The notes under the pieces: generated by a model
What the model was told of the DNA's origin: nothing
What the model saw: the letters and a program-made list of their open reading frames with translations, nothing else
Database searches by the model: none
Program-made: the position numbers and the translations under genes
Shown here: in pieces, positions 3,417-10,905 of the stretch
Layout of the letters: each line of letters starts with the position of its first letter
Numbering within the stretch: the first letter of the stretch is position 1
Origin: Alphaproteobacteria bacterium
GTDB taxonomy: Bacteria > Pseudomonadota > Alphaproteobacteria > Puniceispirillales > Puniceispirillaceae
Assembly: GCA_018666135.1 (NCBI GenBank)
Contig: JABJAN010000013.1
Span: 1 to 37,094, forward strand
Direction: 5' to 3'
DNA: 37,094 bases

Positions 3417-4157
3417 ATGAGTGATTTAATGGCAAGAAAAATTAGATTAGGGGTAAATATAGACCATATTGCAACCTTGCGTAATGCACGAGGAGGCTTG
3501 CATCCAGATCCTGTTCGCGCTGCCAAAATTGTTGAGGCATCTGGCGCAGATGGCATAACGATACATTTGCGAGAAGATAGAAGACACATTAGAGATCAAG
3601 ATGTAAGAGATATTATTAGCTTATCTTCCCTACCAGTGAATCTTGAAATGGCAGCTAGCAGTGAGATGCTTTCAATTGCCTGTGAAGTAAAACCCAATGC
3701 GGTATGTATTGTACCTGAAAATAGAATAGAAATAACAACAGAAGGAGGGTTGGCAGTAGCATCCCAGCAACAAAAGCTTTTGCCAATCATTCAGGAACTG
3801 AAAAAAAATAATATTCGAATATCCCTTTTTATTGATCCACATATTCAAGAAATAGAGGCTGCAGCACAATTAGGAGCAGATATCGTAGAATTTCACACTG
3901 GTAAATATTGTGATACCATGGGAATGCGTCAAGAAGAAGAATTAGGTAAATTGAAAAACGCCTCAAAACGTGCAGACTCCATGGGCATCGAAGTTCATGC
4001 TGGACATGGTTTGAGCTTTGACAATGTTGTCAGTATCGCGGCAATCCCAGAAGTAAAAGAATTAAATATTGGGCATTTTATTATTGGTGAGGCTGTTTTT
4101 TCTGGTCTTTCAAATGTAATACAAGAAATGCGTGATTTAATAACCAAACCCGCATGA
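3417..4157 (+). CDS. pdxJ: Pyridoxine 5'-phosphate synthase
   Basis: TIM-barrel enzyme that condenses 1-deoxy-D-xylulose 5-phosphate with 3-amino-1-hydroxyacetone 1-phosphate to pyridoxine 5'-phosphate, the ring-closing step of DXP-dependent vitamin B6 synthesis. The 246-aa product has the family signatures LGVNIDHIATLRNARGG near the N-terminus, DGITIHLREDRRHI, the NLEMA strand, IVEFHTGKYC and HAGHGL, followed by a GHFIIGEA phosphate-binding region. Normal length. The stop codon is inside the first unit of a 19-bp tandem repeat. Followed by acpS, as in many proteobacteria (the pdxJ-acpS pair), but with an unusually long spacer here because of that repeat. Confidence 0.96.
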   Translation: MSDLMARKIRLGVNIDHIATLRNARGGLHPDPVRAAKIVEASGADGITIHLREDRRHIRDQDVRDIISLSSLPVNLEMAASSEMLSIACEVKPNAVCIVPENRIEITTEGGLAVASQQQKLLPIIQELKKNNIRISLFIDPHIQEIEAAAQLGADIVEFHTGKYCDTMGMRQEEELGKLKNASKRADSMGIEVHAGHGLSFDNVVSIAAIPEVKELNIGHFIIGEAVFSGLSNVIQEMRDLITKPA

Positions 4158-4218
4158 TATTACCAAACCCGCATGATATTACCAAACCCGCATGATATTA
4201 CCAAACCCGCATGATATT
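4143..4218 (+). repeat. Four perfect tandem copies of a 19-bp unit at the pdxJ 3' end
   Basis: The 19-bp unit ACCAAACCCGCATGATATT occurs four times head to tail without mismatch (4143-4161, 4162-4180, 4181-4199, 4200-4218). Copy 1 encodes the last residues and TGA stop of pdxJ (4155-4157); the other three are non-coding. The perfect identity suggests recent expansion by slippage or unequal exchange. Too short and spacer-less for CRISPR. Confidence 0.97.
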
Positions 4219-4225
4219 AATTGAA

Positions 4226-4231
4226 TATAAT
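4226..4231 (+). promoter_or_regulatory. Candidate -10 box upstream of acpS
   Basis: A perfect TATAAT lies 8 nt beyond the tandem repeat and 50 nt before the acpS start. No good -35 box is visible; the -35 position would fall inside the last repeat copy. An acpS-lepB-rnc promoter here is possible but unproven in this A/T-rich sequence. Confidence 0.3.
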
Positions 4232-4280
4232 AAAAAACAACTAGCACATTCCGAGTAGATTTATTGATAAGAGATATGGC

Positions 4281-4688
4281 TTGATTTTAGGTATTGGAAC
4301 AGATTTATGTGATATTCGTCGGATTGAAAAGATACGCACCCGTTATCAATCAAGCTTCGATAATAAAATATTAACACAAAGAGAACAAGAAGAGCTAATC
4401 CATCGGTCCGATAAAAATGCTTATGTTGCAAAACGCTTTGCTGCTAAAGAAGCGATTTATAAAGCTTTTCAATTTACAGACCAAGATAAAATTGGTTGGC
4501 AGGATGCTGAAATTTTAAATTCAGGTAATAAAGGGGCACCAGTGGTAAGTCTTTATGCGAATTGTTTGAACAAATTTAACCAGCAGTTGGCAGTTGCTCA
4601 AACAGGTGCTATTCATCTTTCTTTAACAGATGAATATCCATATGTTATGGCATATGTAATTATCGAAAAAAATACAAACAGCATATAG
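4281..4688 (+). CDS. acpS: Holo-[acyl-carrier-protein] synthase
   Basis: Transfers the 4'-phosphopantetheine arm of CoA to the serine of apo-acyl carrier protein, activating it for fatty acid and lipid A acyl synthesis. The 135-aa product opens with MILGIGTDLCDIRRIE (metal ligand Asp8) and carries RFAAKEAIYKAF with the second metal ligand Glu57, both diagnostic of AcpS-type phosphopantetheinyl transferases. The start is TTG 4281, which places the conserved ILGIGTD correctly; only a weak AAGAGA ribosome binding site precedes it, and the nearby ATG 4276 is out of frame and stops immediately. Next gene lepB begins 34 nt later. Confidence 0.94.
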   Translation: MILGIGTDLCDIRRIEKIRTRYQSSFDNKILTQREQEELIHRSDKNAYVAKRFAAKEAIYKAFQFTDQDKIGWQDAEILNSGNKGAPVVSLYANCLNKFNQQLAVAQTGAIHLSLTDEYPYVMAYVIIEKNTNSI

Positions 4689-4722
4689 CAGCGCTCTATT
4701 TTAATATGAGGGAAGTGAATTG

Positions 4723-5496
4723 ATGGCTCCTAAAAATTCTGATTATAAGTCTTCGCAAAGGGATTCTATAAAAAAGAATTCTGGCATTGGTGAAACAATA
4801 AGAATGATACTTATTGCAGGCATTGTTGCGTTGTCTTTTCGTTCTCTTGTAGCAGAACCTTTTAATATTCCGTCAGGGTCAATGATCCCAACATTACTAG
4901 TTGGTGATTATTTGTTTGTTTCTAAATATGCGTATGGATATTCGAAATACTCTTTTCCATTTGCAATGGCTCCTATCAAAGGCAGGATAGCATCAAGCTT
5001 GCCAGAGCGGGGAGAGGTCGTTGTGTTTAGACTTCCCTCAGATGTGTCTCTTGATTATATAAAGCGAGTAGTTGGTCTGCCAGGAGATAAAATACAGGTT
5101 ATTGATGGTATTCTTCATATTAATGGTGCGGCTGTGTCTAGACGGCAAATAGGGGAGGTCGATGTAACTAACGGTTTTTCTACTATTCGTGCTATTTTAT
5201 ATGAAGAGATTTTTCCCAATGGTCATACCCATGTGATTGAAGAATTCAGAGATGACTTAACATTTGATAATACCCCCTTATATATAGTCCCAGAGGGGCA
5301 TTTATTTATGATGGGTGATAATAGAGATAATTCACGTGATAGTAGAAGCCAGGGCGTAGGCTTTGTCCCAGTTGAAAATCTGATTGGTCGTGCAGAATTT
5401 TTGTTTTTTAGTCACAACAACTCCTCCAGCCTATTTGAAATTTGGAAATGGCCATTGGCGATAAGGTATAACCGCATAGGACAGGGTATTCATTAA
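4723..5496 (+). CDS. lepB: Signal peptidase I
   Basis: Inner-membrane serine protease that removes signal peptides from exported proteins, with its active site facing the periplasm. The 257-aa product has one N-terminal membrane segment (about 26-44), then the nucleophile box PSGSMIPT with Ser53, the general-base region DYIKRVVGLPGD with Lys114, and the conserved GDNRDNSRDSRS near the C-terminus. ATG 4723 is preferred to the adjacent TTG 4720 because GAGGGAAG (4708-4715) is well spaced from it. The stop TAA overlaps the rnc ATG by one base (TAATG), implying translational coupling; lepB-rnc-era is a classical cluster. Confidence 0.96.
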   Translation: MAPKNSDYKSSQRDSIKKNSGIGETIRMILIAGIVALSFRSLVAEPFNIPSGSMIPTLLVGDYLFVSKYAYGYSKYSFPFAMAPIKGRIASSLPERGEVVVFRLPSDVSLDYIKRVVGLPGDKIQVIDGILHINGAAVSRRQIGEVDVTNGFSTIRAILYEEIFPNGHTHVIEEFRDDLTFDNTPLYIVPEGHLFMMGDNRDNSRDSRSQGVGFVPVENLIGRAEFLFFSHNNSSSLFEIWKWPLAIRYNRIGQGIH

Positions 5497-10119: not shown

Positions 10120-10167
10120 AATTACTTAGTCAATTACTTAGTCAAATACTTGGTCAAATACTTAGTC
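10120..10167. repeat. Four tandem 12-bp repeats between convergent parC and bpt
   Basis: Four head-to-tail units follow the parC stop directly: AATTACTTAGTC twice (10120-10131, 10132-10143), then AAATACTTGGTC (10144-10155) and AAATACTTAGTC (10156-10167). They differ at two positions only. The last copy contains the TAA stop of bpt (10162-10164, minus strand). Read in the bpt frame each unit is GAC-TAA-GTA-(A/T)TT, so most copies carry an in-frame stop. Confidence 0.95.
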
Positions 10168-10905
10168 AATTTCATCGTTAATTACATCATCCTGCCATTT
10201 GCCATCAACAAATAGCTGATATGGCTTGAAACGAGATTTATATGTCATTTTTGGGCTATTTTGAACCAAATACCCTAAATAAAGCCATTTTTTAGAGAGC
10301 GTTTCTGTCATTCTAATAGCATCTAAAATTAGAAATGTTCCAAGAGATTGTTTTTCACAATTTGGATTAAAAAAACTATAGACAGCGCTTAGCCCATCTC
10401 TTTGGTTATCCATTAACATACATGCAATAAGATTTTTGTTTTGATCCCGATATTTAATCATAAAAGTATCTATAGGGGAATTATGTATCATGGCATGAAA
10501 ATCACTATAAGACATAGTGGCCATCTGACCGTCATTATGTCTAGAATTCAAATAGGTTTTGAATAATTCAAAGGCTTCGTCATCTGCCTTTGTATCATCG
10601 CTGGTAACACTCAAAGAGGCATTTTTTGACAAAATACGTTTTGCACTCTTTGAAAATACGTATTTTTGAGTATTAACGCGAATAGGAACGCATGCATTAC
10701 AATTAACACAAACAGGACGATAAACCCAATTTTCAACGCGTCTAAAACCACTTTCTGCTAATTGGTCATGAATATATGGTGCGTCAGATATATCTGCGGC
10801 AAGTCTCTGCTCTGCTCTATTTTTTATATAAGCACATTCATGACTTCGCGTGAGCCGCAGATTAAGTGGTTTTTGATTAAGTATAAATTTTGTTTGATCC
10901 ATCAT
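10162..10905 (-). CDS. bpt: Aspartate/glutamate leucyltransferase (Bpt/Ate family)
   Basis: Aminoacyl-tRNA-protein transferase of the N-degron pathway; bacterial Bpt enzymes add Leu from Leu-tRNA to proteins with N-terminal Asp or Glu, marking them for ClpS/ClpAP degradation. The 247-aa product has the N-terminal HECAYIKNRAEQR region and the diagnostic cysteine motif RPVCVNCNACVPIRV, then a GNAT-like C-terminal half with SAVYSFFNP, GTFLILDAI and YLGYLVQNSPKMTYKSRF, all family-typical. Two consecutive ATG codons (10905, 10902) could start it. The Leu-versus-Arg specificity is inferred from the bacterial family, not shown by a residue here. Its last codon lies in the 12-bp repeat array. Confidence 0.92.
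   Translation of the reverse strand: MMDQTKFILNQKPLNLRLTRSHECAYIKNRAEQRLAADISDAPYIHDQLAESGFRRVENWVYRPVCVNCNACVPIRVNTQKYVFSKSAKRILSKNASLSVTSDDTKADDEAFELFKTYLNSRHNDGQMATMSYSDFHAMIHNSPIDTFMIKYRDQNKNLIACMLMDNQRDGLSAVYSFFNPNCEKQSLGTFLILDAIRMTETLSKKWLYLGYLVQNSPKMTYKSRFKPYQLFVDGKWQDDVINDEID

Follow-up and report, generated by a model that had tools for sequence, protein, structure and literature searches.

The tandem repeats of the archaeal Borg elements are perfect, specific to their place and recent, and they sometimes start in the end of an open reading frame (ORF); an intergenic unit of 20 nt has also been described (PMC9879509, in excerpt). They offer the closest described picture to a short array at the 3' end of the gene pdxJ in the alphaproteobacterial draft assembly GCA_018666135.1 (Puniceispirillaceae). 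The array lies on contig JABJAN010000013.1, of which positions 1 to 37,094 were analysed; this whole stretch of 37,094 nucleotides is called the window. Unlike the Borg elements, the genome considered here is bacterial, carries fewer arrays, and several of these are imperfect. Bacterial minisatellites, or variable number tandem repeats (VNTRs), share with the pdxJ array a perfect head-to-tail unit of tens of bases, a position at a gene boundary and the restriction to one lineage. VNTRs are defined by copy variation from strain to strain, whereas the pdxJ array is known here from a single genome.

Mycobacterial interspersed repetitive units (MIRUs) lie between senX3 and regX3 and form a dispersed family of longer units. 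The likeness is that tandem units stand between two genes of the same direction whose stop and start signals overlap. In contrast to a dispersed family, the unit at the pdxJ end is found nowhere else in its genome. Tandem copies upstream of an operon gene are likewise reported from Mycobacterium tuberculosis, where they are promoter DNA (PMC12817950, in excerpt), while the pdxJ array is without a supported promoter. No mention of this array was found among the titles and abstract openings listed in literature searches. Most probably, the array is an ordinary lineage-specific minisatellite and not a genetic switch.

Structure and position of the pdxJ array

Tandem Repeats Finder (TRF) reported a row at positions 4143-4219 with a period of 19, 4.1 copies, 100% matches and a score of 154, the top score among the 17 TRF rows of the window. 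Exact copies of the unit ACCAAACCCGCATGATATT occupy 4143-4161, 4162-4180, 4181-4199 and 4200-4218. This bears out the four perfect repeats across the pdxJ stop that had been described in an earlier interpretation of the DNA without database searches, here called the sequence-only reading. The exact unit occurs 0 times elsewhere in the 1.77-Mb assembly, the four copies of the array being the only ones. We judge that chance is not a reasonable source of three additional exact 19-bp copies. Degenerate copies of the unit were not found within 62 nt on either side; the best scores were reached by 60% (downstream) and 71% (upstream) of mononucleotide shuffles.

The array begins exactly where the conserved part of PdxJ ends. 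The PF03740 profile was aligned to PdxJ over positions 1-234 of 234, and the last aligned codon is 4140-4142. Six of the nine PDB matches end at this same residue, including 1m5w and 1ho1, which we take to be E. coli PdxJ. Position 4143, the first base of the array, is therefore the first base past the conserved domain. The start of pdxJ at ATG 3417 was read by eye, while the ORF tool gives TTG 3390. The TGA of pdxJ (4155-4157) sits within the first repeat copy. Since every 19-bp unit contains a TGA and PdxJ uses the first one, growth or shrinkage by whole units would leave PdxJ unaltered.

The unit was also searched with up to three mismatches. Its own genome yielded two further scattered single matches versus one for the reversed control. 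Ten genomes of the genus, with the array excluded, yielded four single matches versus four for the reversed control. A dispersed repeat family was rejected, because the match counts over these ten genomes equal the control. The array itself is absent from the nine other genus genomes searched (one genome per species). The viral contigs gave one exact match to the 19-mer (L053). It stands as a single copy in the 201 nt of sequence read there and was taken as chance.

The pdxJ-acpS junction in relatives and the origin of the array

Downstream of pdxJ follows acpS. The junction was read in 29 relatives, eight from the genus and 21 from the wider family and order, out of 53 with a pdxJ match, namely those whose loci were retrieved; G009, which is 73% complete, gave no pdxJ match. 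The gap from the pdxJ stop to the acpS start amounts to 123 nt here versus -4 to 29 nt in all 29 relatives inspected. The two genes overlap in 16 of them, G056 being counted on an ATGA overlap read by eye, and gaps of 1-29 nt separate them in 13. The spacer comparison thus agrees with the lengthening anticipated in the sequence-only reading. More distant PdxJ loci (80 of 582 confirmed ones in genome contigs; five viral) were left out of the comparison. Their PdxJ shares at most 58% identity, except for one 54-residue piece at 80%. A MAFFT alignment (A1), in which six of the eight genus relatives were included, gave the array an odd position and served only as a lead. Within the genus (L024-L031), the C-terminal tails of PdxJ and the overlap with acpS vary, with gaps of -4, 14 and 19 nt.

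The 37 nt directly before acpS were compared with the pdxJ 3' tails of the eight genus relatives. The likeness was reached by 2 of 2000 mononucleotide shuffles for G007, by 23 for G002, 159 for G001 and 183 for G003; the remaining relatives gave 255 (G005), 509 (G008), 665 (G004) and 667 (G006). The value for G007 is the best of eight and uncorrected. Over 62 nt, the best likeness was again that to G007 (33 of 2000 shuffles), followed by G001 (79). According to this moderate evidence, the array and the A/T-rich DNA next to it may have arisen inside the tail of a formerly longer or overlapping pdxJ.

Probably, the array is a recent, lineage-specific minisatellite, which originated from slippage in unconstrained DNA and shifted acpS away from pdxJ. 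Replication slippage or unequal exchange would have multiplied one 19-bp segment. The expansion would have hit a part that is free to vary, namely the last few codons of pdxJ, past its conserved end, together with the spacer before acpS. With the acpS start now 123 nt past the pdxJ stop, any translational coupling would be loosened. Slippage or unequal exchange in free DNA explains the perfection of the copies, their uniqueness, their place, their absence in relatives and the other arrays of the genome. The proposal of a recent expansion holds in that the copies are perfect and confined to the lineage (29 of 29 relatives are without them); its recency we infer. Variable copy number at the pdxJ end, i.e. 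hypervariability, would be plausible. The array is a candidate marker for strain typing. It is also an example of a gene junction, often overlapping, that has come apart with both proteins left intact.

Several points weigh against this explanation. The three added copies account for 57 of the 123 nt. The remaining 66 nt still exceed the spacer of every inspected relative (maximum 29), which calls for further new or rearranged DNA, the TATAAT hexamer included, beyond slippage of the unit. Copy number is known from one genome per species, not across strains. Selective neutrality is presumed. The comparison of stop and start codons given below rests on crude gene calls (longest ORFs, leftmost starts). 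Finally, an assembly error in a draft of 134 contigs would undo the array, though it is very unlikely and collapse is likelier than expansion.

Tandem arrays in the genome and the genus

The pdxJ array is accompanied by further tandem arrays in its genome. They were counted in 61 stretches totalling 747,024 bases, which include the window and represent 42% of the genome. The sample of relatives comprised 40 stretches with 553,081 bases from eight members of the genus, with small shares of G001 (25 kb) and G002 (29 kb). A strict filter (period of at least 8, 2.5 copies, 85% matches, score of at least 50) was set after the result of a laxer filter had been seen. It retained 17 arrays in the own sample, 13 of them outside gene calls; six of the 17 have 100% matches and several are imperfect. 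The eight relatives contained three arrays and 0 noncoding ones. With the window excluded, 11 noncoding arrays stood against 0 (p=0.0018), and arrays of all kinds numbered 15 versus 3 (p=0.015). The laxer filter (period of at least 6, 2.8 copies, score of at least 40) gave 15 rows in 294 kb of the own genome, and four relatives together had 12 rows in 388 kb (9, 2, 0 and 1; some overlapping); several of the rows of G003 are noncoding. With this milder contrast, the array excess is threshold-dependent. Noncoding DNA makes up a similar fraction of the sequence, 0.081 in the own genome and 0.068-0.131 in four relatives.

Of the 13 noncoding arrays, five extend over a stop codon, while random placement gives 0.355. 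A targeting of stop codons by arrays was rejected, because the two values are equal. A start codon is covered by one of the 13, that of a doubtful 83-codon ORF, versus 0.378 at random (p=0.019). With these gene calls, the arrays seem to avoid start regions. Stops covered at the random rate and starts below it are expected if arrays survive where they are tolerated. The 13 units are mostly unalike: two of 78 pairs reach the level of 1% of shuffles versus 0.8 expected. Pooled, they are slightly A-rich (0.409 versus 0.352 behind stop codons), with 186 bases too few for a claim. Matches to MutS and MutL above the curated cut-off were found in the own genome. Loss of either gene hence does not explain the arrays, and a loss of mismatch repair was rejected as their cause.

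A further explanation concerns the arrays as a whole. The lineage may, more than its genus relatives, be in an active wave of tandem-array birth with mostly unrelated units, similar to that in Borg elements, and the pdxJ array would be one recent product. Within this explanation, arrays would remodel the ends of genes and break the coupling of overlapping genes in operons. It is considered unlikely, its odds being lowered by the milder contrast under the laxer filter and by a short array that G003 itself possesses at the bpt stop. A possible excess of arrays adds some interest to the genome. If it holds in complete genomes, it would give a bacterial system in which to study the causes of bursts of tandem-repeat formation.

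At the bpt site, the 12-bp unit of the window was not seen in the six genus relatives read there. G003 carries a different, imperfect array of an 11-bp unit at its bpt stop (L180 1472-1505; 3.1 copies, 82% matches, score 47). Within the genus, arrays may thus appear and vanish at gene tails.

Two observations concern other arrays of the samples. A perfect array of a 15-bp unit in 5.5 copies (L153 10524-10606) lies in an open frame that reaches the contig end, and the assembly may break there. A core, CAGAATAA/TTATTCTG, is common to the arrays at L214 84-132, L191 16114-16158 and L180 1472-1505. Noncoding CAGAATAA was counted 17 times in the own sample, while 40 letter-shuffled words averaged 5.0 and reached 12 at most; the arrays contribute part of the 17.

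Table 1. Coordinates of the pdxJ array, its surroundings and further arrays of the genome (window positions unless a locus is named)
Feature	Position	Strand	Basis or remark
pdxJ (pyridoxine 5'-phosphate synthase)	3417..4157	+	Pfam PF03740, E=1.3e-97; PDB matches
Four perfect tandem copies of ACCAAACCCGCATGATATT	4143..4218	+	Sequence reading, TRF, exact search of the assembly
A/T-rich DNA from the array to the acpS-proximal segment, including TATAAT 4226-4231	4219..4243	+	Counterpart in relatives not recognised
Segment before acpS similar to the 3' end of pdxJ in relative G007	4244..4280	+	May derive from an ancestral junction with overlap; shuffle test
acpS (holo-acyl carrier protein synthase)	4281..4688	+	Pfam PF01648, E=3.4e-12; TTG start
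Array, 12-bp unit x4.3 (90%)	10120..10171	-	Covers the bpt stop, between convergent parC and bpt
Noncoding array, 18 x5.7	L138 14025-14124		Covers a stop codon
Noncoding array, 14 x3.9	L154 4254-4307		Covers a stop codon
Noncoding array, 16 x2.9	L191 16114-16158		Covers a stop codon
Noncoding array, 12 x7.0	L210 8072-8155		Perfect

Promoter, assembly and reinitiation as alternatives

The sequence-only reading placed the array just upstream of a putative acpS promoter and held that it could tune acpS-lepB-rnc expression or simply be hypervariable. In the promoter-tuning alternative, the TATAAT behind the array would be the -10 box of acpS and the copy number upstream would set its strength, as in M. 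tuberculosis, where tandem repeats in promoters are phase-variable (PMC12817950, in excerpt). The perfect hexamer is indeed present about 50 nt ahead of the acpS start, separated from the array by 7 nt. In E. coli, pdxJ and acpS also possess promoters of their own, according to a review (PMC8708148). However, the window contains 58 exact TATAAT hexamers versus 52.9 expected, a count that 29 of 100 shuffles attain. At this chance frequency, the hexamer alone means little. A scan of positions 3800-4800, limited to the sigma-70 consensus, found no acceptable -35 at 16-18 nt from TATAAT 4226. Promoter-like sites in this region numbered four versus 4.3 in shuffles, and none of the four uses the hexamer. 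It is located in DNA that is missing from the 29 inspected relatives, in which the genes overlap or are at most 29 nt apart. Moreover, the array excludes the -10, and since the copies are identical, an allele with more or fewer of them would keep the sequence adjoining TATAAT the same. No terminator-like site was detected in 3800-4800. The RNA of 4135-4290 has no stable fold (z=+1.38), with 186 of 200 shuffles folding equally well or better. A promoter of acpS is possible somewhere, and nothing ties one to TATAAT 4226; a promoter-tuning role of the array is quite unlikely.

Very unlikely, too, is an assembly artefact, in which the actual locus holds one copy or some other number. The assembly is a draft of 134 contigs, and repeats may trouble it, as the perfect array of L153 reaches a contig end. 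The 76-bp array at pdxJ, however, lies in the interior of a 37-kb contig. Common short reads exceed its length. Assembly errors are expected to collapse tandem arrays and less so to expand them (PMC12817950, in excerpt).

Highly improbable is a termination-reinitiation ladder, in which ribosomes restart stepwise toward acpS at the ATGA of each copy and the copy number sets their passage. Starts and stops do overlap in a chain through the array (ATG 4154 with 13 codons to 4195, ATG 4192 to 4224, TTG 4221 to 4244). The ladder would work in the manner of coupled overlapping genes, and pdxJ and acpS overlap in 16 of the 29 relatives. It is given little weight because no Shine-Dalgarno-like sequence stands ahead of the ATGs of the chain (AACCAAACCCGC or TACCAAACCCGC) and because any ATGA-containing unit of length 1 modulo 3 yields such overlaps. 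The chain also stops 36 nt short of acpS. The acpS start at 4281 matches the start position in eight relatives of the genus, with TTG in seven of them and ATG in G003.
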